Virus record (IMG/VR): IMGVR_UViG_3300047548_000760
Span: 1 to 60,376 of that record
DNA length: 60,376 nucleotides
DNA from: a virus
Reading direction: 5' to 3' (one strand)
The first letter of the stretch is position 1, and every line of letters begins with the position of its first letter. Made by a program: the position numbers and the translations under genes. Below are positions 2,943 through 41,502 of the stretch, one piece after another. The notes under the pieces were generated by a model. That model had not been told where the DNA came from. It did not search any database and saw only the letters and a program-made list of their open reading frames with translations.

Positions 2943-3289
2943 CCCGCGACGACATCATCCGCATGGCGCAGGAGGCTGATCCCGGCTTTGAGGCCGACCC
3001 GCATCTCGGCGAGTCTCTGGTGGGCATGGAAGCCATTGAACGCTTCGCCGCCCTTGTCGCCGATTACGAGTGGAACCGAGCAATAGGAATTGCCAAGGGC
3101 ATGCAGGGGGAACTTCAGGCCAAGTTTGAGCAGACCTACATGCAAGGCGTAATCGCAGGCGCCGCTGCCGAGCGCGAGGCGTGTGCGAAGGAATGCGAAG
3201 CCATAGCGACCGAGACTTACGGCATGGTCAACCTGCACGAATACGGCGAGTGTGCCAACGCTATCCGCGCAAGGGGCAGCCAGGGCTAA
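2939..3289 (+). CDS. Hypothetical phage protein
   Basis: A 116-residue protein, ATGA-coupled to the preceding gene. It begins MTRDDIIRMAQEAD, a start found in many phage hypothetical proteins of unknown function. The middle is helical (AALVADYEWNRAIGIAKGMQ), and the C-terminal part has two closely spaced Cys (EREACAKECEAIA). It is the last rightward gene before a block of leftward genes; its stop overlaps by 4 bases the end of the convergent gene. Confidence 0.65.
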   Translation: MTRDDIIRMAQEADPGFEADPHLGESLVGMEAIERFAALVADYEWNRAIGIAKGMQGELQAKFEQTYMQGVIAGAAAEREACAKECEAIATETYGMVNLHEYGECANAIRARGSQG

Positions 3290-3949: not shown

Positions 3950-4306
3950 TTAGGCGCGCGGCCCGTTGGATCGGCTGTCGTCGTCAACTTCGTCGAGGAA
4001 GTCTGGGCCCACCACGTAGTCGTTCTCGCGCAGCAGCTCCACCGCCTCGCGCGGCAGGCTGAACACGCCGTCGTAGTCGGTCAGTTCCCCGTCCTCGAAC
4101 CACAGCCCGATGTGCTCGACCTCGTCCAGGCTGGGTATGTCCCACTCAATGCAGCCGTACTTGTCGTCCTCCTGCATGTACAGGGTCATGGTGGATTCGT
4201 GCTTGCCCAGGCCACGGCCACCCCACGAACCCTGCAGGCACAAGGCTGCGGTAAAGGTCTTCTCGGCCACTTCGATCATTCGCATGTTGCTGACTCCGTA
4301 CTGCAT
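3950..4306 (-). CDS. Hypothetical protein, acidic
   Basis: A 118-residue product, or 111 from the second Met (MRMIEVAEKT). It has beta-rich N-terminal segments, then EWDIPSLDEVEHIGLWFEDG and an acidic C-terminus. It is the first gene of the leftward block and diverges from the terminase small subunit gene across a 106-base gap. No family is recognised. The very acidic composition would fit a DNA mimic or an inhibitor of a host protein, but this is speculation. Confidence 0.55.
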   Translation of the reverse strand: MQYGVSNMRMIEVAEKTFTAALCLQGSWGGRGLGKHESTMTLYMQEDDKYGCIEWDIPSLDEVEHIGLWFEDGELTDYDGVFSLPREAVELLRENDYVVGPDFLDEVDDDSRSNGPRA

Positions 4307-4386
4307 CGGCGACCTTGCCGACGGTAGTTATTGTACGGGCAGAAACTCAGCGTGGATTATCCGAGCGAAGTGCAGGGCTTTGGGTC

Positions 4387-4401
4387 GATGCAAGCGTGGC
4401 A
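4387..4401 (+). promoter_or_regulatory. Copy 1 of the dispersed 15-bp element (GATGCAAGCGTGGCA)
   Basis: It matches GTGGCAAGCGTGGCA at 13 of 15 positions, sense to the following gene, and ends 11 bases before the terminase small subunit ATG. Five other copies lie upstream of other virion or lysis genes. Confidence 0.5.
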
Positions 4402-4412
4402 AGGTTCGGGGC

Positions 4413-4946
4413 ATGGCGTACCCACCCAAAATCGCACCTTCGCAGTGGGCAGAGATCGAGCGGCGCGCAACCGCAGGCGAGAGCGTCACGTCGCTTGCGA
4501 GGGAATTTGGGGTTTCGGAGGCCGCGCTGCGCAAGCGTGGCGTGTCGCAAGGCAAGGTTCGCAAGGTTCGTGAGGTGGCCCAGAAACTGGCTGCAGCCCA
4601 GGCTGAGGTCGATGCTTTGCCGCCTTCGCAGCAGCATCTGGCGCTGTCGCTGGCCGAAGAGATGCGGGCGGTCAGTGCCAATCTGGCCAGTGCTGCGCGC
4701 TACGGATCGGCCACGGCGCAGCGGCTCGCCCAGGCTGCGCATGACGAGATCCAGCGTGCCGAAGTGCTTGACGAGGTGACGCTGCGATCGGTGGCGATGA
4801 TCACGCGCACGGCCAACGAGGCCGGGCAACTGGGCGTGCAGCTTCTGAAGTCCAACGAGGCGGTGCTCAAGGAGGAGGCCGAGCGCGAGGCCAAGCGTGC
4901 GGTCGAGGTCACACGCATCGCCCTGGTGCCCATGTCGGCTGGCTAG
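4413..4946 (+). CDS. Terminase small subunit (probable)
   Basis: A 177-residue protein. The N-terminal part (SQWAEIERRATAGESVTSLA ... SEAALRKRG) is a helix-turn-helix of the type that binds pac or cos DNA in small terminases. The middle and C-terminal parts are long helices that would oligomerise (SLAEEMRAVSANLASAARYG, LDEVTLRSVAMITRTANEAG). TerS recognises phage DNA and activates the TerL motor. The start at 4413 follows the dispersed 15-bp element, and the longer upstream frame has no protein character. It is unusual that TerS lies on the opposite strand and far from TerL (49.4-50.7 kb); if the genome is circular they are still about 14.4 kb apart. A transcription regulator is the alternative, but the C-terminal helices favour TerS. 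Confidence 0.7.
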   Translation: MAYPPKIAPSQWAEIERRATAGESVTSLAREFGVSEAALRKRGVSQGKVRKVREVAQKLAAAQAEVDALPPSQQHLALSLAEEMRAVSANLASAARYGSATAQRLAQAAHDEIQRAEVLDEVTLRSVAMITRTANEAGQLGVQLLKSNEAVLKEEAEREAKRAVEVTRIALVPMSAG

Positions 4947-4978: not shown

Positions 4979-7900
4979 TTGCCGAGCCTGCCCATGCCAC
5001 TCGTCTTTCCCGATCAAGCCGCCCAGGCGGCCACGCGCCCGGCCTCTGACGCTGCCCAGGCGGCAGCGCAAGGGGTGACGCCCCAGGCCCAGCAACCGGC
5101 GCAGCCTGCCGGCCGGCTCGTGTTTCCGCGCGAGTTGTCTCTGCGGGATGCCGGGTCGATCGCGGCCGATATGGGCACCGCGCTCTGGGAGGGCGCCAAG
5201 AACACCGGCCGCATGCTGGGCGCCACCGGTAACACGGTGGGCGGGAATCTGTCGGGCGTGGACGAGCTTGCGCGATCGCAGGCCGCAGCCGAGGCGCAGT
5301 CACCGGACGCGAAGGCCCTGCTGATGCAGGAGATCCAGCGCCGCAAGGCCGCGAACCCTGATGCTGGGTGGCTGGACGTGATCAAGAACGTCGGCGCCTC
5401 GTTCATCGGTCAGCCCGAGGGCGCGGCGCAGTTTGTGGCCGAGCAGACCCCGAACACGGCGGTCAGCCTGGGCGCTGGCATTGCAGGCGCAAAAGGCGGC
5501 GCCGCACTTGGCAGCCTCATCATGCCCGGCGTGGGCACTGCAGTGGGCGGTGTCGCCGGCTTCCTGGGCGGCATGTTCCTGGGCAACGCCAGCCTGGAGA
5601 TCGGCGGCAAGGCCATGGAGAAGTCGCAGGATCAGGCCCGCACGGGCGGATCCCTGACGGCCGACGATGCAAGCGCTGCCATCCGCGAGGGTTCCGTCAA
5701 GGGCGGCGTCATCACGGCCGTCGATGCTGCGACCCTTGGCGCCGGCCGAGGCGTGGCGCGCCTGTTCAACAAGACCGCTATCGAGGCTGGCGCCCGCGCC
5801 GAGGCCCGAGTGCTTGCCGATGCTGGCGTGGATGTCACCAGCCGCGCTGCCATCGAGCGATCGCTTGCGGCGGACCCGGTGCTGCGCGCAACGGCGCAGG
5901 AGGCCGGCAAGGTAGCCGCTCAGTCTGCGTCCAAGATTGGCAGCCGAGCCGCCACGGGCGGAACGCTGTTGGGTATGGAGACGGTCGGCGAAGGCGCTGG
6001 TGAGTACCTGGGCGAGCTGGCCGCAACGGGCAAGGCCGACAAGTACGACGCGGTGATGGAGGCGATGGCAGGGCTTTCGCAGTCCGTGCCAGAGACCGCC
6101 TGGAGCATGCGTCAGTCGCAGGGCAACGACCTGAGTGCTCGCGGCATCGAGCGCGTTGGCGGGGATCTTCCGCCCGCAGCGCCCGCACCGGCGCCCTCTG
6201 AGCCGCCCGCACCGCCTGCGCCTCCAACCCCACCGGCCGCCCCGAACAACACGATCATCCCGCCTGCCGATGTGCCGCCGCTGGACCCCACAGCGCTGCC
6301 GCCCGACCTGGACGCACAGAACCGCGACCGCACGCGCTCGGCCAGCGTGCTGCAGATGCAGAAGATCGCGCAGAACCCGGACTACCTGCGCGCGGGCCCA
6401 TCCCGCTCGCCCGACACCGGCGCGCCGATGGTGTTCGCGCAGGGCGACGACACGAGCTTGTTCCCGAGCTTCACTCGCGGCCGTGAGGACGTGGCCGTGA
6501 TGTCCGACGGCCAGCGCGTGCCGTTCCAGTACGCGGTGGTCGATGCCAGCCTGCTGCAGCCGTCCAACTTTGCCGACGGCACGCCCAATCCGCTCTTCAA
6601 CAACGAGACGCCCGGCCTTGTGAAGGCCCTGAGCAACGCCCGCAGCGCAGGCCTGCGTGCTGCCTGGGCGCAGGGCACGGCATCGGGCTATGCGGCAGAC
6701 CTTGAGGCCGACACTAAGCAGCACGGAATCTCTGTCGAGGCGATCCGCTCGACGAGCAACCCAGTCCTGGTACGCCTGTACTCGCAGTCCTCGAATACCC
6801 CGGGCATGGCCGCCCGATCGCAGGGGCAAGGCCTGGGCATGTCGCCTGGGGAACTGGCCCGCCAGGATGCGCCGCTGATCGACGGTGGCCTGCTTGCCGT
6901 GTGGCAAGGCGGGGACGTGGCGGATGCCCGAAACCTGGACTTCGTGCGCGGGTTCGTCGGCCGGCTGCAGGGCACCGGCCAGGACCTTGCGGGGATGATG
7001 ACCCAGGCTGGCACGCTCTCGCCGGACGGGCGCAAGCGCATCCAGGCGGCTCTGGCCCAGTCGGCCTACGGCGACTCGGACCTGATCGCCGAGATGTTCG
7101 ACTCCACCGACACCGACATCAAGGCGATCGGCGAAGCGCTCAAGCTCGCCGCGCCCGAGTGGGCCGACATGCGCGACTCTGCGCGCAGCGGGGCGATTGA
7201 CCCTGCAGCCGACATCACGCCGGCCCTGCTGGATGCGGTGGCCATGGTGCGCCGTGCGCGCCAGCAGCGGCAGAGCCTGTCCGACCTTGCACGTCAGACC
7301 GACATCACGACGGGCCAGACGCCTGACCCGATGGTGCTGGGCGCCCTGCGCTTGCTGTACGGCGGGGAGTACCTCACGCGCCCGATGGGCCGCGACCGCA
7401 TGGCCGACTTCCTGCGGGAATACACGCGGCTGGCCAAGGGCATCACGGCCGACGCCGGCCTGTTCGGGGACGCCCCGGCGCCGCTGGACGTGCTCACCGC
7501 ATTGACGAAGGAGACCGCAACCGATGGACAGCAGCAACAACCCGGCGCAGCAGCCGGCACAACCCAGCAGCCCGGCGCGGGCCTCCAGCAACCCAATGGC
7601 GGCAGCAATCCTGGGGGCGATGCTGGTCCGGGAGGGGCAGCGGCAGTACGACCCGGCGACAACGCAGGCGGGGCACAACCTGCTGCGGGTGGCGCAGGAC
7701 CACTGGCCAACACCGATACCGCAGGACAAGCGGCTGCCCAAGGGGTAACTGCGCCCGGCAACCAGCCGATGGTCGGTGATGCGTTTGATCCGACTGGTTG
7801 GTCAGAGCAAGAGAACAAGATCAACAAGAAGACCGGGCAGCCCATGCTTGGCTCCGGGAGGGTTCGCTTCAAGCGCGCAGACGAACGCGGATTTGAGCAA

Positions 7901-10900
7901 AGCGTCGTTGTGCAGAACGGGGTGATCGTCACATCGAACTCGGTTTCTCCACTTGTTGAGCTGACGAACTCAAGCCTCGACTTTGATGCTCCTGTGCGTG
8001 GTCGCGTTCACGTTCTCAACTCGGATGTTCAGGGACTGGTCCTTACGTTTGTTCCGGAAGATTCGTCTGGCGCGACAGCCACAAAGATGAGTCCGCGAGC
8101 CGTCCAGCAATACAAGGACGGCGTTCCCATTGAAAAGATCACGGAGACGGAGTTCTCTGACGCTGGCGGCATCAAGCCGGACGGCTCGCGCACCCCGCAC
8201 ACGACCGTTGGAGCCCTGGTCAAGGGCCCGGCACCGGGCGCCCCGGTAAGCGCGCCCGCAACGACGCAAGGAGCTTCCGATGTACGACAAGAAGGGCAAG
8301 GGCGGCGGCAAGAAGAAGCGCTGACGCCAGAAGCCGGCGCGCCTGGGCAGCAGCCTGGGGCGCCGGCCGCAGCACAGACGCCCGCTCCAGCTCCTGCTCC
8401 GCGCACCCCTGAAGCTATGGGCGACGCACTCAGGCGGCGCATTCAAGGCGACGTCCAGGCCAAGAGAGACGGCGAAGCAGCCTACCAAAGCGGTGCCGAT
8501 CGCATCCCGCCCGAGTCGATGACTGCGCCATCGCAGCGAAGGATGTGGCTGGAGGGATACGACACGGCCGCGCCGGCCTCGTCGCCCGCACCAGCACCAG
8601 CGCCGACCCCGGCCGGTGGCGCCAACACCGTCTTCACCGAGGACGCTGCAGCGGCTGCCCGTGCGCGCCTGAAGGCCAAGCTGGGCCGGCTGAACTCCGG
8701 CATCGACCCCGAGACGATGCTGGACGGCATCACGCTCGCGGGCTACCACATCGAGCGCGGCGCGCGGACCTTTGCGGCCTACGCTCGCGCGATGGTCGAT
8801 GACCTGGGCGACGCCGTGAAGCCCTACCTCGTGTCCTGGTACTTGGCCGTGCGCAACGATCCGCGCGCATCTGACTTCAAGGCCGACATGGACAAGGCCG
8901 GCGCCGTTGAGGATGCGGACCTGGACGCGCTGTTGGCGAACAAGGGCAAGGCGCCCGAGGCCGCGTCAGCCGTTCAACCGTCCCTCAACACACCGGCCGG
9001 CCGCATGGCCCTGGCCCAGGTCATTGCCGACCGGTTCATCGGTGGCGACGGCTTCAAGACCATCATCGAGGCCCGCAAGTTCATCGCAGAGGCCACGGGC
9101 GAGAAGATCGAGGCCGGCACCCAGGCCGCGAAGCTGGCCGACGAGGCGATCGAGATGGCCGTGGTCATGGCCGGGCGCGAGATTGTCCAGGCCGCACGTG
9201 CCCAGGGCCGCAGCGACAGCGTCATCTACGACCGGCTGGTGAACCTGTACGACCTGCAGCCGACGCTGGGCGTGCGCACGTCCACCAGCGTGCGAGAGCA
9301 GGCCTACAGCACGCCCGTGCCCCTGGCCTTCCTGGCGTCTCGCCGGGCCCAGGTCGGGCCCGACAGCACGGTGGGCGAGCCCACGGCCGGCAACACCATG
9401 CTGCTGATCGAGGTCGACCCCGAGCGCGCTGCGGTCAACGAGCTCAACGCCGACCGGGCGGCCAACGCTCGCGCACTGGGTTTCACGGTGACCAGCCACG
9501 ACGCTGCGCGCCACCAGCTCGCGCCCGAGAAGTCGCTGGACCGGGTGGTGGCCAACCCGCCGTTCGGGGCAGTCAAGGGCGACGACGGGCAGACGGTGGT
9601 GTTCCCGGTGGCCTCGAACTACGGCACGCGCGAGATCGACCATGCCATCTCGTTCAAGGCCCTGGACGCCATGAAGGACGACGGATCGGCGGTGCTGATC
9701 CTGGGCGGCGTGGACGCCTCCAACGAGGAAGCGATCCGCGAGGGCTATCGGAGCAAGAGCAAACGGGAGTTCTACTTCCGGCTGTACGGTCTCTACAACG
9801 TGGTCGACCACTTCACGGTCGACGGCGGTCTGTATTCCAAGCAGGGAGCGGGCTACCCTGTGGATGTGGTTGTGATCCGGGGGCGCGGCAAGGCGACCCG
9901 TGCGATGCCGGCCGCTGAACTGCCCAAGCGGTACGACAACTGGGAAGCACTGAAGAAGGAGAAGCTCGATGGATCAACCGAAGCAACCGCAACTGGCGTG
10001 GTGCCCACCGGGCCTGCCACCGGAACTGGCCGCAGTGATGGTGCCCAAGGACAGCAGCCTGGAGCCGGGGGACTGGTGGATGGCGCTGGCCGACAGGGTG
10101 CAGGAACTGGTGGACAAGGAGCCGGACCCGGACGAGGCGGCGACGTGGGCGGCACGGTCGCTGGGACGCCCGGGGCTGAGGGACAGCCAGGACGCCGGGG
10201 AGGTGCTGGTGCAGCGCAACCTGGAACTGCGGACGGCCCTGACGCTGGACGTGACGGCGCAGCCCAAGCACCCGTTTCCGGCCAAGGCCCTCGTGGAGTC
10301 CGCGGCAACGCGCCGGGCGATGGAGGAAACCGACCTGGAGACGTGGGTGGAACTGGCGGCAGCCAGGGTGAGCGCGTCGAGTCTGGACTAAGCGATCGCC
10401 GGGGCCTGGAGCAGGAGACCGAGACCCAGGTCGAATACGCGCCCCAGTCGGGCGCCGCGTCGGTGGGCACGCTGGTGCCCCGCGCCATGCGCGAGTCCAT
10501 CGCAGCCTCGCTCAAGCGGGTGGCTGACTCGGTGGGCAACATCGACGAGTTCGTCGCGGAGAAGCTGAACTTCGATCCCGAGACGCTGCGGGCCAACTTC
10601 TCGGCCGAGCAGGTCGACGCCCTGGCGCTGGCGATCATGAGCGCCGAGGCCGGCAAGGGCTTCATCATCGGGGACCAGACCGGCATCGGTAAGGGCCGGG
10701 TCGTCGCGGCGATGCTGCGCTACGCGATGATCAACGAGAGGATTCCGGTGTTCGTCACCGAGAAGCCGAACCTGTACGCGGACATGATCCGCGACCTGGA
10801 CGACATCGGCATGGGCGACGAACTGCGGCTGCAGTCCAACAAGCCGCTGATCCTGGCCACCAACTCCAGCGAGCCCATCCCCTACGTCCTGCAGCGCAAG

Positions 10901-13900
10901 TCCGGCGACACGATTGTCGAGACCGAGCACACGCTGCGTGCACCCGGGGCCGGCGCTGACCTGGAAAAGTTCTTTGACCAGATCGCGGGCAGCCGCGACA
11001 TCGGCCCGTACAAGGTTGTCTTCACCACGTACAGCCAGCTGCAGACCGTCAAGGGCAAGGTCACGGCGCGCATGCGCATGGTGCAGTCCCTGGCCCAGGG
11101 CGGCTACATGGTCTTCGATGAGAGCCACAACGCGGGCGGCACGCAGATCACGCAACCCCGCACCAAGAAGGACCGCGACGCGGCCAAGGCCGGCGAGACC
11201 ACGACGGGCCGCTCCGGGTTCGTGCGCAGCCTCGTGCGCGTCTCGTCGGGCAGCTTCTTCTCGTCGGCCACCTACGCCAAGCGCCCCGACGTGATGGACC
11301 TCTACAGCAGCACCAACATGCTGCTGGCGGTGGACCGGCCCGCTGACCTTGCGCCGGCCATCATGCAGGGCGGCGTGCCCATGCAGCAGATCGTGGCGAC
11401 GATGCTGGCCGAAGACGGGCAGTACATCCGCCGCGAGCGCACGTTCGCGGGCGTGACCTACGAGACCCGGCCGATGACGGTGGACCGGCAGACGGCCGAG
11501 AACATGGCGCAGTCCATGCGCATGATCCTGGCCTTCTCGCGCGGCAAGGAAGCCGCCGTCAAGGCAATGCAAAAGGAGTTCGACCGCGAGGGCGCCATGG
11601 TGGGCGTGTCTGGCGGCGAGAAGACCTCGGTGCAGGGCGCCAACTTCGGCGCGATCATGCACAACCTCATCGACCAGATGCTGCTGTCGCTCAAGGCCAA
11701 GGAGTCTGTGGACTTCGCCATCGAGCGCCTGAAAGCCGGCGAGAAGGTCGTGCTGACGGTGGCCAACACGATGGGCTCGTTCCTGTCGGACTATGCCGAG
11801 GAGTTTGGCATCCGCCCTGGCGAGCCTGTCACGCTCAGCTTTGCGGACCTGTACCAGCGCTACCTTGAGAAGCAGCGCGTGGTGAAGATCAAGCGCCCAG
11901 GCGGACCCAAGAGCGGCGTGCCGTACCGGCTGACCGACTCCGACCTGGGCAGTGGTCTGGTGGCGCAGTACAACGATGTGGCGCGGTTCATCCAGGAAGC
12001 CGGCTTCGGCTCCGCGCCCATCTCCCCGATCGACTACATGCACCAGCGGCTGCGCGAGGCCGGCTACAAGACCGACGAGATCACGGGCCGCAGTGTCACG
12101 GTGAGCTACGCGGGCAAGGCTCCGGTCCTGGCATCGCGCAACGCCAACATCAAGCAGCGCCTGACAGCGATCCGCGGCTTCAACAGTGGCGCAATCGACG
12201 TGATCATCCTCAACCAGTCGGGCGCCACGGGTCTGTCCCTGCACGCTTCGGCCAAGGTCAAGGACCAGCGCAAGCGGCGCATGATCATCGTCCAGGCCGA
12301 GAAGAACATCGACACCCACATGCAGATGCTGGGTCGCGTGCACCGCACGGGTCAGGTGATCACGCCGGACTACACGCAGGCCATGGCCGACATCCCGGCC
12401 GAGGCCCGGCCGGCGTCGGTGCTGCTGAAGAAGATGGCCAGCCTGAACGCCAACACCACCGCCAGCCGCAAGAGCGCGGTGACGGCCGAGGGCGTCGTGG
12501 ACTTCATGAACGACTACGGCGGTCAGGTGGCTGCCGAGTTCCTGCTGGACAACCCCGAGATCCACATGGACCTGGGCGGCCAGAAGGTGCTGGAGATCCC
12601 GGCCGAGGCCACGGAGGCCGACGAGGACCTGATCCGCAAGCTCACCGGCTACATCCCCATCCTGCCCATTGAGCAGCAGGAGGCGGTCTACCGCGACTTG
12701 GTGGACCGCTACAACGACTTGCTGGCCCGTGAGAACGCCATGGGCACCAACAAGCTCGAAGCCGCAGCGCTCGACCTGGGTGCGAAGACGGAAAAGCGCG
12801 AGCAGATCACGACCAAGCGCGACAGCCCCGTGCCGTCGCGGTTCGCCGAGCCGGCTTTCATGGAGCAGGTCGACGTGGCGCGCACGGTCAAGCCGCTGAC
12901 CAAGGCCGAGGTCCAAGAGGCCGTCAGCCAGTCGCTGGGCGGCAAGACCCCGCAGATGGTGGCCAACGAGCTCAACAGTTCCCTGGCGCAGCGCATGGAG
13001 CCGTTCCTCGTTGACCTGCAAAAGCGCCGCATGCAGCAGGGCGCCGACACGGACGGCGAGAAGCGCGCCCAGTTGGCCCAGGAGGTCGAGCGGCACCGGA
13101 TGCAGCAGTCGATCATCTCGGACCTGCTGTTTCGCTTCCAGATCGGGCAGGAGGTTTCGCTGCTGGACCAGCACCAGTCGGTGACCTACGGCGTCATCAC
13201 ATCGGTGTCGGCAGCCGGCAAGACCAAGAGCCCAGCCGCCGCTTCGGGCTGGAAGTTCACGATCGCCCTGGCCAACGGCGAGGCCCGCTCCATCACGCTG
13301 AGCGCCTCGCAGATCGGCAAGCAGTTCACCCTGCGCGCCGAGCGCGGGCCGGTGATCACGCTCAACCCCAGCACGAACGAGCCGGCCTCGATGAGGATCC
13401 CCGACCTGTTCGACGCCTACGGCGGCTCGGGCAACGTGCGGCGCGAGAAGCGCTGGATGGTCACGGGCAACCTGCTAGCGGGCTTTGCCTCGTACCCCGG
13501 TCAGATCCTCACGTACACCAAGGACGACGGATCAACCGGGCAAGGCGTGCTGATGCGTCGGGGCTTCGACTTTGAAAAGCGCAGGGGCGAGGCCAAGGCC
13601 TCGTTCCCTTCCGCAACCGTCATTCGCCTGTTCTTCACCGAGGCCGGCCGCAACGCCACGATCGGCACGCCCGATGGCGTGCTGCGCGTGAAGTGGTACG
13701 GCGGGAACTACCCGGCTGAGTTCGAGGTCGCCTCTTCCAAGCGCGAGGGCGGCAGGTTCTACCTGGATCGCGGCCTGACGGACGCCCTTGGGCGCGACTT
13801 CACCAAGGTCGGGCAGGTCATGCGCGCTGCGGTGACCGAAGACGACATGATGCGCGCCCTGGTCTACCTGATGACCGAGCGCGACGACGTAAAGCTCGAA

Positions 13901-16900
13901 GCGCAGACGAACAAGGACGTGGCCCGGCGCCTGCTGGGCCTGCCCGATGTGACGGAGTCGCAGGGCAAGCGCACGGGCGACAGACCGGCGTTCTCCCGCA
14001 CGGACGCGGCTACCAAGGGCATGACGGTTGCCGGCGTGCAGCGCGTCTCGGGCGGCGCGATGGCGGCCTGGGCAAACAAGCCCCGGCTGGTCGTGGCGCG
14101 CAACATCCAGGAGCCCAGCGTGCCGCAGGCGCTGCGCGACGAAGACGCACGCCAGCGCAAGGGTGGCGCAACGGGCGATGTGCGCGGCACCTTCTATGAG
14201 GGCGTCATCTACCTGTTCAGCGACCACCTGGGCAGCGACAAGGATGTGATCGAGACCCTGTTCCACGAGGGCCTGGGTCACTACGGCCTGCGGGGCGTGT
14301 TCGGAGATGCACTCAACGCGGTGCTGGACATGATCAACCTCGCGCGGCCGGACCTGATGCGCCCGAAGGCTGCCGAGTACGGAGCGGACCTGCGCAAGCC
14401 TGCGCAGCGCCGCAAGGTGGCCGAGGAGGTGCTGGCCAGCATGGCGCAGTCCGAGCCCTCGCTTGGGTTCGTGCGCCGGGCGGTGGCCGCGGTTCGCACG
14501 TGGCTGCGCACCAACGTGCCCGGCTTCGAGAAGTTGCGCCTGACCGACGACGAGATCATCCGCAGCTTCATCTTGCCGGCGCGCCAGTTTGTGATGCAAG
14601 GGCAGGCCCAGGCTGTTGCCAGCGCAGCAGGCGCCCAGGCGGCGTTTGCTCGCGCTTCCCAAGGCGGGCCCCGTCAGACTCCCGAGCAGCGCGCCGAGAC
14701 CATCCTGGCCACGCCCGTGACCCAGGCGCGGCCGCTTGATCGGGTGTTTCGCACTGTCTCGCGCATGACCGGCTTGGAGGCCGTGACCAACCGCATCTAC
14801 GGCCGGGCTGCCTACCTGCTGGATCGATTCACTCCTGAGACCGTCAAGGCCGGCATCGTCTCCGACTACGGCGTGCCCGAGGCGGTGATCGACATGCGCG
14901 TCATGCTGCAGGGCCGGCAGCGCCAGCAGTTGCGCCGCTCCGGCGAACTGGTGGACAAGCTGGCCAGCCTGACCCGCGAGGAGTCCCGGATTGCCTACGA
15001 GTGGATGAACATGGACGGCTCGGACCCCCGCGCCTACCTGTCCATGATGCAGGGCCTACCCGAGGAGTCCGTGCGGGTGCTGCAGGACGTGCAGCGCATG
15101 ATCGACGACCTGTCCAAGGAGGCGGTGCGCCTGGGCCAGCTGGACCCCAGGTCCTACGAGCGCTTCAAGTTCGCCTACCTGCGCCGGACATACGAGCGCT
15201 ACCTCGAAGAGTTGACCCCGCAGCAGCGGGCCAGCCAGCAGCGCGCCACCCGCATCCTGGGTGACCAGTACCGCATGCGCGGCTTGGTCGAGCCCGTGGA
15301 GATGGCCAAGATTAAGTCCGGGGACCCGGAGTGGTGGGGCCGCAAGGAGCGCGAGGGCAAGGGCGACACCGGTCTGGTGAACCAGAAGTTCATCAAGCTG
15401 GAGCGCCTGAAGCCCACGGGCGCCGGCACGATCCCGCTGCCGGGCATGACCGGCCGGCCCGATGGCAAGGTGCTTGAGGTGGTCTACTGGCCCGCCGATC
15501 GCGCCGTGCCTGCGAAGTACAGCGAGTGGCGCCAGAACGAGGTCTTTGAGGTCCGCGATGTGAAGGGCGGCAAGGTCATCCTGTGGCGCGACTTCACAAA
15601 GGACGAGCGCGAGGCCATGGGCGAGGTTGATGAGGCCCGCTTTGCGATCGCCCGCACGCTGCAGCGCATGGTCCACGATGTCGAGGTCGGGCGCTACCTG
15701 GAGGGCCTGTCCCAGAAGTACGCCAAGGCCGACGGCGACGAGATCGACGGCACCCTGGTGGAAGCCAGCGAGCACTGGCACCGGGCGTTCAAGCCGGGCG
15801 ACTGGGTGAAGGTGCCAGAGACCAAGATCACGGGCACGAGCGTGGCCAAGTACGGCAAGCTCGCCGGCAAGTACCTGCCGGGCCCGATCTGGAACGACGT
15901 GCGCTTTGCTGTGAACGGACCGTTCCAGCCGTTCGGCGAGGTCTACGGCAAGGTACTGTCGGCCTGGAAGGTGGCCAAGACGGCGCTGACACCGGCCGTG
16001 CACATGAACAACGTCATGGCCAACCTCGTGATGGCCGACTGGCACGAGGTGGGCGCGGCGCACGTGGGCAAGGCCCTGCGGATCATCCTGGCGGCCAACC
16101 AGCGCGACGGCAAGGGCGCACTTGGCAGCCTGGGCAACGTCGCTGCAAGCGGCGGCATCGCCGACCGCGAGGCGGCGCTGCAGATCATGAACCGCTACCG
16201 GGATGCGGGCGGCGACATCGGGTCATGGGCGACCCAGGAGATCGCCCGCGAGCAGATGGCCCCGCTGCTGGACGCTGTGCTGGAGGAGTTGGGGCGCAAC
16301 GGGGACGCCTCGGTGCAGGGGCAGATCGGCGTCATGGCGGCGCTGCAGCACTTGCTGCACCTGAAGCTGCCCGAGGCCTGGAGCGCGTTCAAGGCCAGCA
16401 AGCCGGCCACCGTCGCCGGCCGCGAGGCTCAGTCCATGATTGACCTGTATCAGGCCGAGGATGACGTGTTCCGGCTGGCGGCGTGGCTGGCAGCCAAGGA
16501 GCGCGGCCTGGATGACCTGCGCGCCGGCCGGGAGGCCCGCAAGTCCTTCCTGGACTACGACATCAACGCGCCCTGGATCGACGCGATGCGGCGCAGCGCG
16601 TGGCCGTTCATCTCGTTCACCTACCGCGCCGTGCCCATGCTCTTCGAGATCGCCGGCAAGCGACCGCACAAGCTGATGAAGCTGGCGGTGCTGGTTGGCG
16701 CCCTGAACATGCTGGGCGTGGCCATGTCCGGTGACGACGAGGACGAGGACGAGCGCCGTCGCCGCATGCTGCCCGAGGAAAAGGCCGGCAAGGTCTGGGG
16801 CATCGTGCCCAAGTTGATCCGCATGCCCTGGGACGACAAGAACGGCTCTCCGGTGTACCTGGACATCCGGCGCTTCGTCCCGGTGGGTGACATCGTGGAC

Positions 16901-17422
16901 ACCGGCTCCACTCAGGCGGCGCTGCCCGTGCCGCCCGGACTGATGCCCGGGGGCCCGCTGGTCATTCTGGGCGAGGTGCTGATGAACAAGAGCGCGTTCA
17001 CCGGCAAGCCGATCGTGCTGGGAACCGACACACCGACCGAAGTGGCCGGCAAGGTGTTCAGCCACCTCTACAAGGGATTCGTGCCGAACCTGCCGGGCTT
17101 GCCCGGCACTTACGCGACCGACGCCCTGGTCAACGCCGGCAGCGGCAAGACGGACGCCTTTGGGCGCCAGCAGTCGGTGGCCCAGGCGGTGGCCTCGTCA
17201 GTCGGGGTCAAGTTGGGCAGCTACCCCGAGGATGTGCTGCGGCGCAACACCATGGCGCGCGCGAGCGCCCAGGAGCGGGAGATCGAGACGGTGATGCGGG
17301 GGCTGCAGCGGCAGCGGCAGATGAATGCGATCAGCCAGGAAGAGTTCGACCGGAAGATCGAAGTGCAGCGGGAAAAGCTGCGCAAGCTGTCGCAGGAAAC
17401 GCGAGAAAAAGTGGCGCAGTAA
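4979..17422 (+). CDS. Giant polyvalent protein: ddrB-ParB, N6-adenine methylase, Strawberry-notch-like helicase, HExxH, LPD38-like
   Basis: A 4147-codon ORF from TTG (4132 from ATG 4994; no good ribosome-binding site for either). Domains in order: hydrophobic Gly-rich N-terminus (about 150-230); ddrB-type ParB-like domain (480-650); a conserved segment starting VFTEDAAAAARARL (1217-1295); methyltransferase with GEPTAGNT (about 1464) and NPPF (1525); superfamily 2 helicase with GDQTGIGKGR (1898), DESH (2047) and QMLGRVHRTGQ (2449); HEGLGH zincin motif (3096); then a long region resembling LPD38 with a hydrophobic segment near 3900. Such polyvalent proteins, like P1 DarB, are packaged and ejected with phage DNA and protect it or remodel it in the cell. 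Domains are joined by Gly/Pro/Gln linkers, three of which overlap small genes in another frame. It follows the terminase small subunit gene, after a copy of the 15-bp element. Confidence 0.9.
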   Translation: MPSLPMPLVFPDQAAQAATRPASDAAQAAAQGVTPQAQQPAQPAGRLVFPRELSLRDAGSIAADMGTALWEGAKNTGRMLGATGNTVGGNLSGVDELARSQAAAEAQSPDAKALLMQEIQRRKAANPDAGWLDVIKNVGASFIGQPEGAAQFVAEQTPNTAVSLGAGIAGAKGGAALGSLIMPGVGTAVGGVAGFLGGMFLGNASLEIGGKAMEKSQDQARTGGSLTADDASAAIREGSVKGGVITAVDAATLGAGRGVARLFNKTAIEAGARAEARVLADAGVDVTSRAAIERSLAADPVLRATAQEAGKVAAQSASKIGSRAATGGTLLGMETVGEGAGEYLGELAATGKADKYDAVMEAMAGLSQSVPETAWSMRQSQGNDLSARGIERVGGDLPPAAPAPAPSEPPAPPAPPTPPAAPNNTIIPPADVPPLDPTALPPDLDAQNRDRTRSASVLQMQKIAQNPDYLRAGPSRSPDTGAPMVFAQGDDTSLFPSFTRGREDVAVMSDGQRVPFQYAVVDASLLQPSNFADGTPNPLFNNETPGLVKALSNARSAGLRAAWAQGTASGYAADLEADTKQHGISVEAIRSTSNPVLVRLYSQSSNTPGMAARSQGQGLGMSPGELARQDAPLIDGGLLAVWQGGDVADARNLDFVRGFVGRLQGTGQDLAGMMTQAGTLSPDGRKRIQAALAQSAYGDSDLIAEMFDSTDTDIKAIGEALKLAAPEWADMRDSARSGAIDPAADITPALLDAVAMVRRARQQRQSLSDLARQTDITTGQTPDPMVLGALRLLYGGEYLTRPMGRDRMADFLREYTRLAKGITADAGLFGDAPAPLDVLTALTKETATDGQQQQPGAAAGTTQQPGAGLQQPNGGSNPGGDAGPGGAAAVRPGDNAGGAQPAAGGAGPLANTDTAGQAAAQGVTAPGNQPMVGDAFDPTGWSEQENKINKKTGQPMLGSGRVRFKRADERGFEQSVVVQNGVIVTSNSVSPLVELTNSSLDFDAPVRGRVHVLNSDVQGLVLTFVPEDSSGATATKMSPRAVQQYKDGVPIEKITETEFSDAGGIKPDGSRTPHTTVGALVKGPAPGAPVSAPATTQGASDVRQEGQGRRQEEALTPEAGAPGQQPGAPAAAQTPAPAPAPRTPEAMGDALRRRIQGDVQAKRDGEAAYQSGADRIPPESMTAPSQRRMWLEGYDTAAPASSPAPAPAPTPAGGANTVFTEDAAAAARARLKAKLGRLNSGIDPETMLDGITLAGYHIERGARTFAAYARAMVDDLGDAVKPYLVSWYLAVRNDPRASDFKADMDKAGAVEDADLDALLANKGKAPEAASAVQPSLNTPAGRMALAQVIADRFIGGDGFKTIIEARKFIAEATGEKIEAGTQAAKLADEAIEMAVVMAGREIVQAARAQGRSDSVIYDRLVNLYDLQPTLGVRTSTSVREQAYSTPVPLAFLASRRAQVGPDSTVGEPTAGNTMLLIEVDPERAAVNELNADRAANARALGFTVTSHDAARHQLAPEKSLDRVVANPPFGAVKGDDGQTVVFPVASNYGTREIDHAISFKALDAMKDDGSAVLILGGVDASNEEAIREGYRSKSKREFYFRLYGLYNVVDHFTVDGGLYSKQGAGYPVDVVVIRGRGKATRAMPAAELPKRYDNWEALKKEKLDGSTEATATGVVPTGPATGTGRSDGAQGQQPGAGGLVDGAGRQGAGTGGQGAGPGRGGDVGGTVAGTPGAEGQPGRRGGAGAAQPGTADGPDAGRDGAAQAPVSGQGPRGVRGNAPGDGGNRPGDVGGTGGSQGERVESGLSDRRGLEQETETQVEYAPQSGAASVGTLVPRAMRESIAASLKRVADSVGNIDEFVAEKLNFDPETLRANFSAEQVDALALAIMSAEAGKGFIIGDQTGIGKGRVVAAMLRYAMINERIPVFVTEKPNLYADMIRDLDDIGMGDELRLQSNKPLILATNSSEPIPYVLQRKSGDTIVETEHTLRAPGAGADLEKFFDQIAGSRDIGPYKVVFTTYSQLQTVKGKVTARMRMVQSLAQGGYMVFDESHNAGGTQITQPRTKKDRDAAKAGETTTGRSGFVRSLVRVSSGSFFSSATYAKRPDVMDLYSSTNMLLAVDRPADLAPAIMQGGVPMQQIVATMLAEDGQYIRRERTFAGVTYETRPMTVDRQTAENMAQSMRMILAFSRGKEAAVKAMQKEFDREGAMVGVSGGEKTSVQGANFGAIMHNLIDQMLLSLKAKESVDFAIERLKAGEKVVLTVANTMGSFLSDYAEEFGIRPGEPVTLSFADLYQRYLEKQRVVKIKRPGGPKSGVPYRLTDSDLGSGLVAQYNDVARFIQEAGFGSAPISPIDYMHQRLREAGYKTDEITGRSVTVSYAGKAPVLASRNANIKQRLTAIRGFNSGAIDVIILNQSGATGLSLHASAKVKDQRKRRMIIVQAEKNIDTHMQMLGRVHRTGQVITPDYTQAMADIPAEARPASVLLKKMASLNANTTASRKSAVTAEGVVDFMNDYGGQVAAEFLLDNPEIHMDLGGQKVLEIPAEATEADEDLIRKLTGYIPILPIEQQEAVYRDLVDRYNDLLARENAMGTNKLEAAALDLGAKTEKREQITTKRDSPVPSRFAEPAFMEQVDVARTVKPLTKAEVQEAVSQSLGGKTPQMVANELNSSLAQRMEPFLVDLQKRRMQQGADTDGEKRAQLAQEVERHRMQQSIISDLLFRFQIGQEVSLLDQHQSVTYGVITSVSAAGKTKSPAAASGWKFTIALANGEARSITLSASQIGKQFTLRAERGPVITLNPSTNEPASMRIPDLFDAYGGSGNVRREKRWMVTGNLLAGFASYPGQILTYTKDDGSTGQGVLMRRGFDFEKRRGEAKASFPSATVIRLFFTEAGRNATIGTPDGVLRVKWYGGNYPAEFEVASSKREGGRFYLDRGLTDALGRDFTKVGQVMRAAVTEDDMMRALVYLMTERDDVKLEAQTNKDVARRLLGLPDVTESQGKRTGDRPAFSRTDAATKGMTVAGVQRVSGGAMAAWANKPRLVVARNIQEPSVPQALRDEDARQRKGGATGDVRGTFYEGVIYLFSDHLGSDKDVIETLFHEGLGHYGLRGVFGDALNAVLDMINLARPDLMRPKAAEYGADLRKPAQRRKVAEEVLASMAQSEPSLGFVRRAVAAVRTWLRTNVPGFEKLRLTDDEIIRSFILPARQFVMQGQAQAVASAAGAQAAFARASQGGPRQTPEQRAETILATPVTQARPLDRVFRTVSRMTGLEAVTNRIYGRAAYLLDRFTPETVKAGIVSDYGVPEAVIDMRVMLQGRQRQQLRRSGELVDKLASLTREESRIAYEWMNMDGSDPRAYLSMMQGLPEESVRVLQDVQRMIDDLSKEAVRLGQLDPRSYERFKFAYLRRTYERYLEELTPQQRASQQRATRILGDQYRMRGLVEPVEMAKIKSGDPEWWGRKEREGKGDTGLVNQKFIKLERLKPTGAGTIPLPGMTGRPDGKVLEVVYWPADRAVPAKYSEWRQNEVFEVRDVKGGKVILWRDFTKDEREAMGEVDEARFAIARTLQRMVHDVEVGRYLEGLSQKYAKADGDEIDGTLVEASEHWHRAFKPGDWVKVPETKITGTSVAKYGKLAGKYLPGPIWNDVRFAVNGPFQPFGEVYGKVLSAWKVAKTALTPAVHMNNVMANLVMADWHEVGAAHVGKALRIILAANQRDGKGALGSLGNVAASGGIADREAALQIMNRYRDAGGDIGSWATQEIAREQMAPLLDAVLEELGRNGDASVQGQIGVMAALQHLLHLKLPEAWSAFKASKPATVAGREAQSMIDLYQAEDDVFRLAAWLAAKERGLDDLRAGREARKSFLDYDINAPWIDAMRRSAWPFISFTYRAVPMLFEIAGKRPHKLMKLAVLVGALNMLGVAMSGDDEDEDERRRRMLPEEKAGKVWGIVPKLIRMPWDDKNGSPVYLDIRRFVPVGDIVDTGSTQAALPVPPGLMPGGPLVILGEVLMNKSAFTGKPIVLGTDTPTEVAGKVFSHLYKGFVPNLPGLPGTYATDALVNAGSGKTDAFGRQQSVAQAVASSVGVKLGSYPEDVLRRNTMARASAQEREIETVMRGLQRQRQMNAISQEEFDRKIEVQREKLRKLSQETREKVAQ
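7524..7748 (+). CDS. Nested small gene A inside the polyvalent gene
   Basis: A 74-residue ORF in the +1 frame relative to the giant gene. AAGGAG at 7508-7513 lies 10 bases before the ATG. The product has credible composition (PMAAAILGAMLVREGQRQYD, HNLLRVAQDHWPTPIPQD). In the same bases the giant frame is a low-complexity Q/P/G/A linker (residues 849-923), as expected when a GC-rich gene is read out of frame. It is either a real overlapping gene or the relic of a once separate intergenic gene. The function is unknown. Confidence 0.6.
   Translation: MDSSNNPAQQPAQPSSPARASSNPMAAAILGAMLVREGQRQYDPATTQAGHNLLRVAQDHWPTPIPQDKRLPKG
8280..8324 (+). CDS. Nested mini-ORF B inside the polyvalent gene (14 residues)
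   Basis: ATG at 8280 with AAGGAG at 8268-8273, spacing 6 bases, encodes MYDKKGKGGGKKKR, a very basic glycine-lysine peptide, in the same +1 frame as nested genes A and C. The overlapped giant-frame residues (about 1101-1115) lie in a linker. A DNA- or RNA-binding micro-peptide is possible. Short length limits confidence; the ribosome-binding site and shared frame support it. Confidence 0.45.
   Translation: MYDKKGKGGGKKKR
9969..10391 (+). CDS. Nested gene C inside the polyvalent gene (140 residues)
   Basis: A 140-residue ORF in the +1 frame, with AAGGAG at 9956-9961, 7 bases before the ATG. The product (MDQPKQPQLAWCPPGLPPEL ... LEPGDWWMALADRVQELVDK) looks like a globular helical protein with normal Trp, Asp and Glu content. 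The giant frame over the same bases (residues 1664-1804) is almost only Gly, Ala, Pro, Gln, Arg and Asp, a typical out-of-frame reading. It lies exactly between the methylase and helicase domains. No family is recognised. Confidence 0.7.
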   Translation: MDQPKQPQLAWCPPGLPPELAAVMVPKDSSLEPGDWWMALADRVQELVDKEPDPDEAATWAARSLGRPGLRDSQDAGEVLVQRNLELRTALTLDVTAQPKHPFPAKALVESAATRRAMEETDLETWVELAAARVSASSLD

Positions 17423-20509: not shown

Positions 20510-20899
20510 TCACTCCGCAGGGTAGATGATCACGGAGCCCGGCGCCACCGAGTTGTCCTTCGGGTAGGCGTCTTTGACCGCTTTCAGGCGGCTGTAGAAG
20601 GGCTCGACACGGGGCATATGGAAACCATCCATGGCGTGCCAGAGCATGTCCATTTGCTCTCGGACGCTTGGGTATACGTCGGCGCGCGCCTTGCGGTAGT
20701 CCATGTCGACGGGCGGCGGCGGCCTGCCGCCAGCTATGACCTGACCTGTTGCAGGGTCCACGGCGTCAGCCTCGACGTCGGCCTGAGCCTCGACTACGAA
20801 CTCGCTCGGTCCTGCGGCCTGAAATTCAAGGACGTCATCCGTGCAGACGCCAGCCCGCAGGATCTCACCGGCAGCGTTGTAGACAACAAAATGCTTCAT
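20510..20899 (-). CDS. Putative tail fibre assembly-like protein
   Basis: A 129-residue product whose ATG overlaps the stop of the giant fibre gene (ATGA). The segment DYRKARADVYPSVREQMDML, with the following WHAMDG, is characteristic of small proteins next to phage fibre genes, some annotated as fibre assembly or XkdW-like. Translational coupling to the fibre supports a chaperone or accessory role in fibre folding; this is inferred. Confidence 0.6.
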   Translation of the reverse strand: MKHFVVYNAAGEILRAGVCTDDVLEFQAAGPSEFVVEAQADVEADAVDPATGQVIAGGRPPPPVDMDYRKARADVYPSVREQMDMLWHAMDGFHMPRVEPFYSRLKAVKDAYPKDNSVAPGSVIIYPAE

Positions 20900-23800
20900 C
20901 GCTTCATGACCAGTACGCTTAAGCGCATGGTTCCCGTGTAGTAGCTTCTCGTCACGGTGATCGTGTGGTTTCCGGCGCTTGGCGCCACAACAATCACGCC
21001 GGTCGGGGTTCCGTTATCGGTAAGTCCTGTAACGATGGGGCCATATACATCAGCAGTACCCCCGCCGAACTTGCCGCCAGAGCTTCCGGCAGTAAAAGTT
21101 GGTGGGCCCAGGTAATACTGAATGAACAGCGCGGACGCTGATGCGGGAACACTAACTGTCACACTTACCGTGTCGGTGGTGGAGGTTGCAACGGAACTAG
21201 ACGACGCCGCATTACCGACGATCTGGTCAGTGTTGACGATGGCAGCGGAAAGCGATCCACTAAAGGACGCCGAGCCGTTGACGATACTGAAGCCCGGCGC
21301 GTAGACGTTTCCGGTGTTGTCGACCTGGAAGTAGCGGTTGTTGTTGGCGTTGCCCAGCAGTAGGCCGTTCGGTCCCAGGTGGAAGCCGTAGTTGTTGACC
21401 GCCGGCCACGCATACCCCGTGAACGCGCCTCCGTTGATCGAGCCCCTGATGTTGAGGGCGCCCCCAGCGGAGTCGAACTCCATGGACTGGCTGCCGCCGC
21501 TGTTGACGCGGAAGAACGAAACCCCGTCGTTGCGCTTGAGGAAGATGTCGTTGAAGTTGCTACCAGACAAGGACAGGCCGTAGTGGCCCGAGCTTGGGCC
21601 GACGTCGTGGCCGAGCTGCACGCCACCAGCGGTGATCTTGAGATTGGCCCCGTCAATCTTTGTGGCCGTGATCGAGCCCGCGCCGATGCGGTCCGCACTG
21701 ATCGTGCCGGCCGTGATCTTGCTGGCGTTGAGGTCGTTGATCTTGGCGTTGGTGATCTGGGCATCACCGATCTTGGCTGTCGTGATCGCGGCGTCAGCGA
21801 TCTTGGCGCTGTCGATGGCCGCGTTGCCGATCATCGCGTTGACGATGGCCCCGTTCTGGATGGCCGCAGTACCCACCGCGATGGCGTTGGCCGCGATCTT
21901 GTTGGCCGTGATGGCGCCGTCGACGATCAGGTCGGCAGAGGCCACCTCTTGGCAGCGAATGGCTTGGGCGGCTTGTCGCGCAGTTCCTGAGCCACTGGAG
22001 TACCGGAACCAGACCATGATCGCCGCTTCTTTGGCGCTTGCGGGAATCGGCCTCGCAGTGCCAGCGCCGAACTGCCCGCCGTAGCGCGCCCAGTCGCCGG
22101 GGGTAGGCAGGCCACCATATGTGTACCCGGCGTATGTGCCGCCCCATCCTGTGCTGGCCCCCGTCAACTCCGTTCCATTCCCATCCCACATGCGAACGGT
22201 CACGTACATATTGCGGTTGTTGCCCGCATCCACAAAGAGCTGCGCAGTGGCGCTGTATGTGCGAGAAGAGTTGATTGGGAACCGCCGGCTGTTGACCTGC
22301 ACATCAGTGCTGGAGCCGGCTGGTAAGTCAAAGAAGTACCGACCTTCAGCGGAGCCCGCAGCGCTGGACCCCTGCACTACGGTTCCGCCCGTGATGGTCC
22401 ACGCGCTCAGGTCCATGCAGGCGGGGTCGTCGTTGAGCGCGGTTCCCTGGCCCGTTACCAGCAACTTGTCAGTGGTGATAGCGCCCGCAGAAATCTGGGC
22501 CGCGCTCACGGCCCCCGCCGCGATCTTGCCCGCGGTGACGGCGTTGGCCGACAGCTCGTTGGCGGTTACCGCGCCCGCAGCGAGCTTGGCAGTCGTGACA
22601 GCGCCAGCGTCAATCTTTGCCGCTGTGACCGCATTGGCTGCGATTTTGGAAGCCAGGATGGAGCCATCAACGATGAGGTTGGCGTCTGCCTTCAGCATCA
22701 GGCGAATGCCTGTTGCCAACTGCGTGCCTGTCCCCGAGAAGTTCGACAGCAGGCCGACCCTGATATACCTTGCGCCGGCCGGGATGGTGGCGCTCTCGTT
22801 AGGCCCGAAACTGATACGGTATTCAGTCCAAGCGGCCGGCAGGGTGCCGTTGACAAGGCCGAAATAGTGGTACGTCCCTTGGCTGGGCCATCCGCTGGCG
22901 CCGCCGCTGATGATGCCGTCGTTCGCGTCGTAAAACGCGACCGTCAGGTAAGTAGTGCTGGAGCCAGTCTCCTGGCGGGTCCAAATGCGGTACTCGTAGT
23001 TTCTGGACGCATCAAGGGGCACACGCTCCGACACGAACGTCATGCCTGCGGTTGCGCAGCGTAGAACGGTGGCGCCAACTGGGCTTGTCGCGTCAGCAAT
23101 GATTGAAAGCCCGGTGCCGATCCAGGCAGTCACATCTTGCGTGTTGGGGTCAGCGTTGAGAGCCATGCCCCGGCCCGTGACCAGGAGCTTCTCAGTCGTG
23201 ATCGCGCCCGCCGCGATCTCGCTCGCGCTGATGGCTCCCGCCGCGATCTGGGCCGCAGTGATGGTGTCGGCAGCGATGTTGCTGGCCGAGATGGTGTTTG
23301 CCGCGATCTTCTCGCCCGTGATGGTGGCGGCGGCGATCTCCGTGGCGGTGATGGTCCCTGCCGCGATCTTGGCAGCCGTAACCGCATTGGCAGCCAGCTT
23401 GTTGGTTGCTATGGCGCCGTCAACGATGAGATCGGCGGTGGCGGCCTGATCCAAGATGACGGCGGAAGCGCTCACGCTCCCACTAAAGGTGTTGTTCGCC
23501 TCGTTGTAGATGAGGAAGCGCACCGAGACGGCATTGGCGGGAACTTGTCCCTGCGCAGTCAGATCCTGCGTACCGGAGCCCGCGGTAGACGTGAGCGTAA
23601 TGTCGGCAAGATCTGCGTTGAGCCGGTTGTAGAAACGGGCGGCAACATAGAACGACTGGTTGCTGTTGTTGCGCATCCGGGCGCGCAGCCGCACCCAGGT
23701 GCCAATGGAGGGGACTGCAACTGACCCGCTCCAGATGTGCTTGCGCAACGCGCCCGGGTTGTTTGTGGGGTGTCCACTCCAGAGCGAGGCGTGCTTGCCA

Positions 23801-38741: not shown

Positions 38742-40484
38742 TCAGCGAGGCACCGCGCCGATGTTTGCGAACTCGTCGGCGATCTCCTGCGGGCTGCGGG
38801 GTTGCGCGGCTGGCGCTGGCACCACGGGGGCCGCTGGGCGCGGCGCCACGGACACGGCAGCGGCAGGGCGAGGTGCTGGCACGGGCGAGGGCGCGGGCGC
38901 CGGCAGCCACTGAACTCCCTCGACCGGGCGCCCACCGGGCCCGTTCTTGATGTTGAACTTGGACCCAGGCGGGATCTTTCCCGCTGCGCCCGCGGCTTCG
39001 GCTTCGGCGGCGGTGTTGAACGTCAGCGGGGCGCCGGGCTGTGCGGGGGCTGCCGGTGCAGGGGCGCCGGGTGCGGGCGCCTGGGCGGCACCCACGACCG
39101 CGTCGTAGTCCTTGAGCGCCTGATCAGCGACCTTCTTGGCCTGCTCTGCGCTTCCCATCGAGGCGGTCAGCGCCTTGCCGTAAATGTCCTGGTAGAAGTC
39201 GTTGCGCGACTTCTGCACGCCCTGCATGGCCATGCGCAGGCCGGTGGCCATGTCTGGCGCCACCTTGGCGTTGATGAGGGCCTGGGCCAGCTTCACCTGG
39301 GCCGGCGAGTTGGCGTCGATTGTGGGCACCGCACTGATGACCCCGCGCCGGACCGCTTCGACATCTGCCGGGGTGGCGTTCGGGTTGTTCTGCTTGTAGA
39401 GGGCGGCGGCCGCGTTGGCCTTGGCCTCGGCATCCTTGCGCGTCTGCGCGTCTGCGCCAGCCAGCCGGCGCGCGGCGTCATCGGCGCGCTTGTTGTCGGC
39501 CCTGATGTTGTCAATGTTGGCGCCCGTTTGTGCGACCGTGTTCGTGTTGGTCGCCACCTGAGAGGTCGTCAGGTTCTCGTCCCTGATGGCCTGGGCGAGG
39601 TCCTTGTTGACCTCCTCCATCATCTTTAAGGCGCGCGTCGGGTTCACGTCCAGCAGGCCGACGGCGGCGTACAGCTTGGCCTGCTCGCCACGGCTGAGCG
39701 TCTCGAAGCGGGCGTTCCCATCGGGAGTCACCACGGACAGCCCCACCAGACCGTTCTTGTCGGGCGTGGACATCGTGATTCGTCGAGAGGTCTGGTTGAC
39801 GAAGACCGTCGTTGCGCCGATCTGGTCTTCGGTGGCCTTGTACTCCTTGGTGCGCTGGGCAATCAGCGCGTCCTCGGCCGTCGTGCGTCGCTCGGTCTCC
39901 AGCGATCGAAGCCGCTCGATGTCACCCGTGGCTGCAGCGATGGCGGCCATCTGACCGCTGACGCGCTGGCGGTACTCCGGCGACAGCGGGTCAACGGCGC
40001 CGCGCACCGTCAGGGCCTGCTCGTTGGCGGCGTTGGAGCCGTCTCGCACGGTCGGGACGGCAGGCACAGCGGGCATGACGCCGGCAGCGGGCCCAGCAGG
40101 CGCAGCGGCGGCAGCAGCCGCGTCGGCAGGCACGCCAGACAGCGCCGGTGCGGCGGCCGGGCGCACGCCCTGGCGCGCCGCGTTCTTGGCCATCACGGCG
40201 TTGTCAGGCGCCTGCAGCGCTGCATTGAAGTCGGCATCGAGCGCCGCGTTGGTGGCCGGCCTGTCAATGCCCTGGATCGTGTCGCTCAGGCCGCGCGTGA
40301 GCTGCGCGACCTCAGCCTTGCGGCGGGCCTCTTCGGTGGCCGATCCGATCTGCAGACGGGTCAGGTCCTTGCGCAGCTCGCGCTCCTCGTCTTCCTTCTT
40401 CTGGCGCTCGGCGCGCTCCTTGCGGTCAAGGGCATCGGTTGCGATGCGGCTACCCAGCTGGAACCCGGTTTGAAACGCTGCCAT
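38742..40484 (-). CDS. Internal virion (ejection) protein, putative
   Basis: A 580-residue protein, mostly alpha-helical with long charged coiled-coil stretches (DRKERAERQKKEDEERELRK) and Ala/Pro-rich linkers (about 115-150 and the last 110 residues). Podovirus ejection proteins are of this size and composition, sit between the portal and capsid genes, and enter the cell before DNA. It is 3 bases downstream of another probable internal protein. No enzymatic motif is visible. Confidence 0.55.
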   Translation of the reverse strand: MAAFQTGFQLGSRIATDALDRKERAERQKKEDEERELRKDLTRLQIGSATEEARRKAEVAQLTRGLSDTIQGIDRPATNAALDADFNAALQAPDNAVMAKNAARQGVRPAAAPALSGVPADAAAAAAAPAGPAAGVMPAVPAVPTVRDGSNAANEQALTVRGAVDPLSPEYRQRVSGQMAAIAAATGDIERLRSLETERRTTAEDALIAQRTKEYKATEDQIGATTVFVNQTSRRITMSTPDKNGLVGLSVVTPDGNARFETLSRGEQAKLYAAVGLLDVNPTRALKMMEEVNKDLAQAIRDENLTTSQVATNTNTVAQTGANIDNIRADNKRADDAARRLAGADAQTRKDAEAKANAAAALYKQNNPNATPADVEAVRRGVISAVPTIDANSPAQVKLAQALINAKVAPDMATGLRMAMQGVQKSRNDFYQDIYGKALTASMGSAEQAKKVADQALKDYDAVVGAAQAPAPGAPAPAAPAQPGAPLTFNTAAEAEAAGAAGKIPPGSKFNIKNGPGGRPVEGVQWLPAPAPSPVPAPRPAAAVSVAPRPAAPVVPAPAAQPRSPQEIADEFANIGAVPR

Positions 40485-40487
40485 TGC

Positions 40488-41501: not shown

Positions 41502-41502
41502 A

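Follow-up and report, generated by a model that had tools for sequence, protein, structure and literature searches.

A giant phage gene joining an adenine methylase, a Strawberry-notch-type helicase and a zincin-like module, and its probable role as an ejected anti-restriction protein

The stretch of DNA analyzed in this study (hereafter the window) is the 60,376-base virus record IMGVR_UViG_3300047548_000760, 20.6% of which is taken up by one gene. This giant polyvalent protein gene (4979..17422, plus strand, as are all parts of it given below) is a single intact open frame of 4147 codons from a TTG start, in agreement with an earlier note on this DNA, which had described one gene of that size filling a fifth of the genome. 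A chance frame was ruled out because relatives are 82-88% identical to it across long stretches. The ATG at 4994 is probably the start codon in preference to the listed TTG, giving a protein of 4142 aa, because the close relative L005 opens with MSLVYPDQ, aligned with MPLVFPDQ here; no clear Shine-Dalgarno sequence was found before TTG 4979 or ATG 4994. Six motifs quoted in the earlier note, GEPTAGNT (9374), NPPF (9554), GDQTGIGKGR (10670), DESH (11117), HRTGQ (12341) and HEGLGH (14264), were all recovered in the order given there. Several unrelated catalytic and binding domains are thus carried by one phage polypeptide, and by its sequence the product is a phage polyvalent protein, a kind already known from Iyer et al. 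2017 (PMC5512222). Immediately 5' of the giant gene, in the window and also in the relatives L004 and L005, lies an ORF (4110..4946, plus strand) identified by PHROG 1206 (E 4e-6) and synteny as an HTH gene like that of the terminase small subunit (terS).

The N-terminal half contains a DdrB-like ParB domain at residues 445-600 (6311..6778), which PF18763 matched at E 6e-15 and with 55.9 bits against a cut-off of 27.6, so that the ParB-like domain proposed earlier passes the Pfam threshold; residues 495-732 align with P1 DdrB (27% identity, E 1e-12). Pfam searches of the N-termini of 39 relatives detected InPase in 8, DdrB-ParB in 6 and SLT in 5. A linker module follows at residues 1216-1340 (8624..8998), assigned to the DarB-like PHROG 10089, and the 80 residues 1216-1295 are 65% identical to JC1 gp69. 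Residues 160-210 of the window protein (about 5456-5608) form a glycine-rich hydrophobic stretch, GAGIAGAKGGAALGSLIMPGVGTAVGGVAGFLGGMFLG, which is possibly membrane-active.

The core of the protein consists of an N6-adenine DNA methylase domain (residues 1345-1690, 9011..10048), recognized by profile matches and the motifs GEPTAGN and NPPF, and a Strawberry-notch (Sno)-type SF2 helicase/translocase (10631..12538), recognized by Pfam and invariant motifs. The methylase domain fell below Pfam cut-offs, and an alignment of 25 sequences compared with the PDB gave EcoR124II HsdM (1.5e-4) and PH1948 (1wy7; 1.4e-4), with METTL5 weaker; the methylase Glu, Gly-Asn and NPPFG were invariant in 43 sequences. 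On the helicase side, AAA_34 (PF13872, residues 1885-2172) scored 69.2 bits against a cut-off of 27 and Helicase_C_4 (PF13871, residues 2366-2520) 78.2 bits against 30.5, and most residues of GDQTGIGKGR, DESH and HRTGQ were invariant in the same number of sequences (43), the first His of HRTGQ not being among them. Profile searches therefore recover both of the folds that the earlier note had claimed; of its "SNF2/Strawberry-notch" label the helicase is borne out and the type is Sno, unlike the SNF2-type helicase of DarB.

A predicted adenine methylase fused to a predicted SF2 translocase is the DarB-like arrangement, and each of the 56 complete viral relatives has this fusion, even though they were retrieved with a query limited to the helicase side; viral contigs alone yielded 99 confirmed relatives of that query region. 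Bacterial contigs contained compact methylase-helicase homologues, many of about 1,500-2,200 aa, which lack the zincin and C-terminal modules described below, and at six loci in bacterial contigs, mostly Bacteroidetes (L135, L137, L142, L147, L148 and L155), the methylase and the Sno helicase are adjacent separate genes. A few instances of Sno-type helicases in polyvalent proteins are given by Iyer et al. 2017 (PMC5512222). The pair might serve to start replication or transcription of the incoming genome instead of countering restriction, and the jump-starting of both processes is among the polyvalent-protein themes of Iyer et al. (PMC5512222), while our literature search found no assayed phage function for Sno-type helicases. 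We regard this as improbable, as the obligatory adenine methylase partner, similar to the type I HsdM subunit, points to modification and restriction.

C-terminal to the helicase lies a zincin-like module (residues 3001-3226, 13979..14656) with the motif HEGLGH (14264-14281) and a putative third ligand, Glu3150. The module is common to 11 relatives, in which the His, the Glu and the downstream Glu are conserved, the pattern of a putative zincin-like MPTase motif (HExxH or HExxxH plus a downstream conserved Glu); one clade member (L067) has HELFH in place of HExxxH. The protease-like motif noted earlier is accordingly present after the helicase and its His and Glu are kept across the clade, but its form is HExxxH and not HExxH. 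An HEXXXH set exists among the polyvalent-protein MPTases of Iyer et al. 2017 (PMC5512222). A profile of the HExxxH clade aligned with a separate HExxH clade with HE in register (E 1.1e-5), and nothing significant was found when zincin profiles were compared with PDB and Pfam. The zincin assignment, like that of the methylase fold, is a prediction from profiles and motifs.

An HExxH or HExxxH motif was found C-terminal to the helicase in 52 of the 56 complete relatives and no more than 450 aa past it in 49/56; 200 shuffles gave 1.06 on average and never more than 4. The observed count reflects conservation as well as recurrence, since the 56 relatives are not independent. The protease slot is fixed among the relatives and its occupant is variable. 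That the order of protease after helicase is peculiar to the window protein was thereby ruled out: what the earlier note had singled out as distinctive is the rule in this family. Its idea of self-processing is not distinctive either, since zincin self-processing of polyvalent proteins had already been put forward in Iyer et al. 2017 (PMC5512222).

The limits of the module were given by L005, whose shared parts are 81-88% identical to the window protein from residue 1213 on. L005 aligns up to residue 2999, then over 3001-3226 and then from 3230, and carries as extras a RadC/JAB-like segment (HNHPSG) directly before the zincin and an ADP-ribosyltransferase domain directly after it. These alignment breaks, two insertion junctions, show that the zincin unit is closely delimited and that domains have been inserted or lost at both of its edges. 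Across the relatives the methylase-helicase core is fixed and the cargo domains to either side of the motif slot vary; Pfam searches of the C-termini of 37 relatives returned LPD38 in 24, RadC in 4 and ART-PolyVal in 3, with PBECR1, SLT and others once each. In the window protein the C-terminal module (residues 3230-4147, 14666..17419) is defined by the alignment with L005 from 3230. Its 920 C-terminal residues had no Pfam match, and PF18857 (LPD38) had none in the window. A profile-profile comparison with the LPD38-bearing C-termini of relatives related residues 3826-4041 (16454-17101) to them at 94% probability and E 1.4e-7. The earlier label "LPD38-like" is thus a fair but remote description of this predicted domain, upheld by the profile-profile relation and not by Pfam.

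These observations bear on whether the zincin would cut the protein that carries it. The same protein could be packaged with a zincin that cleaves no polyprotein and serves as an effector on host proteins or as an inactive structural element for encapsidation, a reading that we consider doubtful but to be taken seriously. Effector roles are listed by Iyer et al. (PMC5512222), and according to the same source the N4 virion RNA polymerase is packaged unprocessed, although it cannot be encapsidated without its MPTase region; moreover, one relative (L077) retains the same C-terminal module without any HExxH or HExxxH motif. A near-universal slot between separable units, with insertions on either side, however, better fits a release device.

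Comparison with known systems places the window protein beside giant proteins of virions. JC1 gp69 is a virion component, identified by 51 unique peptides that cover 15.6% of it (PMC9144972). We found that it carries SLT, an Eco57I-like methylase (just below cut-off), an SNF2-type helicase, LPD3, HExxH (residue 3465) and LPD38. JC1 gp69 and Bcep22 gp75 ("DarB-like"; PMC9144972) resemble the window protein in size and in the order of methylase, helicase, HExxH and C-terminal module, and the similarity extends to the linker segment and to a neighbouring acetyltransferase and virion genes; they differ in having an SNF2-type instead of a Sno-type helicase and an N-terminal SLT instead of ParB. P1 DarB, which is virion-borne and protects against type I restriction, likewise combines an adenine methylase with an SF2 translocase, and P1 DdrB unites a ParB domain with an HExxH-type motif, but in P1 the activities reside on separate proteins and DarB has an SNF2-type helicase and neither HExxH nor HExxxH. 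Gp3 of Bacteroides phage BS-TP4 (5391 aa, annotated as hypothetical) has a homologous methylase, Sno helicase and HExxxH zincin in the same order (29-35% identity), and differs in its LPD38-positive C-terminus and longer N-terminus. With the polyvalent proteins of Iyer et al. (PMC5512222) the window protein shares a methylase-SWI2/SNF2 pair, DdrB-ParB, a zincin MPTase and LPD38; unlike them, its lineage is Sno-type throughout and shows no direct LPD38 match. The window methylase and helicase profiles (43 sequences) matched neither P1 DarB nor JC1 gp69, and these two are therefore architectural analogues and not close core homologues. The kinship with P1 DarB and the Bcep22 giant that the earlier note had put forward accordingly holds for architecture and for the virion location of JC1 gp69, but not for the core profiles.

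The window also encodes podophage proteins (terminase, portal, major head protein and internal virion protein) together with an integrase, RecE/RecT and a Holliday junction resolvase, and the phage resembles the Bcep22/Lessievirus group in predicted gene content. An acetyltransferase (41503-41961, minus strand) lies inside the virion gene cluster and is kept with JC1 gp63; it is 45% identical to gp63, and a virion-associated protein is 26% identical to JC1 gp64. A megablast search of window positions 30-54 kb against reference phages gave no close record. In a separate observation, discrete stretches of a 2087-aa tail-fibre-like protein (20896-27159, minus strand) matched several tail families.

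The giant gene of the window lies on the strand opposite to the virion operon, beside the terS-like gene and the integrase, and late co-expression with the virion genes is therefore not assured. This position, together with the existence of compact chromosomal methylase-helicase pairs free of virion-type modules, would suit a protein made after entry or from the prophage, that is, an intracellular modification or exclusion enzyme and not virion cargo. We judge this unlikely, since modules typical of virion-type proteins (ParB, zincin and LPD38-like) are retained in the window protein, the zincin and the C-terminal module are missing from the compact homologues, and the adjoining gene is a packaging gene. 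Two relatives are close to the window by their capsid proteins, L006 at 93% and L074 at 91% identity, and in both of them the giant gene lies 3' of genes homologous to those at window positions 38742-41961 and shares their strand. The giant gene has evidently changed both its place and its orientation with respect to the virion operon within a close lineage, and its placement after virion-gene homologues in these two relatives counts in favour of packaging.

The N-termini of the giants provide a further lead. Many of them open with a short peptide, a second copy of which follows within some 50 residues; its sequence is phage-specific (such as NPFAKY, EIPWD, FGDLL, KFWExDP, NPxTGEVLFxVNGxW and NFFAQFDE); the carriers include L006, L007, L009, L025, L030, L038, L041, L058, L062, L063, L073, L082, L110, L111, L112, L115, L126 and others. 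Self-comparison scores were compared with composition shuffles, with starts set by a simple rule, and among the giants p of 0.02 or less was reached by 18 of the 39 viral ones (a non-redundant set) and by 10 of the 22 encoded in bacterial contigs; the statistic was devised after the pattern had been seen in the viral set, and the bacterial-contig set and two control sets were tested afterwards. Duplication was thus found in 28/61 giants against 0/34 compact homologues (Fisher p 2e-7), and in 3/77 other phage ORFs. In the window protein the extreme N-terminus (4994..5134) bears a weak duplication, the pair LVFPDQ / LVFPRE (LVFP at residues 8 and 47), which is not individually significant (p 0.04-0.08), the best-scoring pair there being of low complexity. 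The duplication is absent from P1 DarB and JC1 gp69. No shared tag was found when the N-terminal peptides were sought in other ORFs of the same loci, and in reference phages the matches were at chance level only; two of these, in a virion RNA polymerase gene (wrong strand) and in a jumbo-phage protein (near the C-terminus), were rejected.

The phage-specific N-terminal tags may be likened to encapsulin cargo peptides, by which cargo enters HK97-fold shells. The repeats are naturally read as loading tags because the N-terminus of P1 DarB targets the capsid, its signal lying within the first 30 residues (PMC9024508). The duplicated peptide is therefore a candidate capsid-loading tag, although its absence from P1 DarB and JC1 gp69 and its weakness in the window protein make this a lead. 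For the ejected giants as a group we tentatively suggest, at rather less than even confidence, that a phage-specific duplicated peptide acts as a bivalent loading tag and that the zincin slot releases inserted cargo. Neither the fixed zincin slot with its flanking insertions nor the duplicated N-terminal peptides were found in the passages of Iyer et al. 2017 (PMC5512222) that were consulted.

On balance, we consider it probable, with reservations, that the product of the window gene is a polyvalent anti-restriction protein which a temperate podophage, similar to the Bcep22/Lessievirus group, packages in its virion and ejects. The analogy with JC1 gp69 (PMC9144972) and P1 DarB (PMC9024508) favours a packaged protein that protects DNA over the other readings, packaging being suggested by homology, architecture and gene context. 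Against it count the lack of detectable homology of the core to P1 DarB and JC1 gp69, the lack of a Pfam or PDB profile match for the zincin, and the weakness of the N-terminal duplication. What we observed are the domains and their order, the conservation of catalytic residues and, in relatives, the exchange of modules; from these we infer the following working. The protein would be loaded into the procapsid, probably via its N-terminus and the conserved C-terminal module, and would enter the host together with the phage DNA. The methylase-Sno helicase pair would then translocate on the incoming DNA and N6-methylate adenines or block host restriction translocases, the ParB-like domain may bind or process DNA, and the HExxxH zincin would cleave the chain close to itself on either side and so release the units.

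Because the 65% identical linker is shared with JC1 gp69 and the core profiles match neither that protein nor P1 DarB, the window protein would appear to do the work of a DarB-type protein by means of a helicase from another family, which would extend DarB-type antirestriction to Sno-type helicases. How proteins of several hundred kilodaltons are loaded into and released through a phage virion is poorly understood. The relatives offer two natural experiments, namely proteins whose shared parts are more than 80% identical but whose inserted cargo domains beside the protease module differ, and giant and compact versions of the same enzyme pair with repeated N-terminal peptides in the giants only, and they make loading tags and self-processing directly testable.
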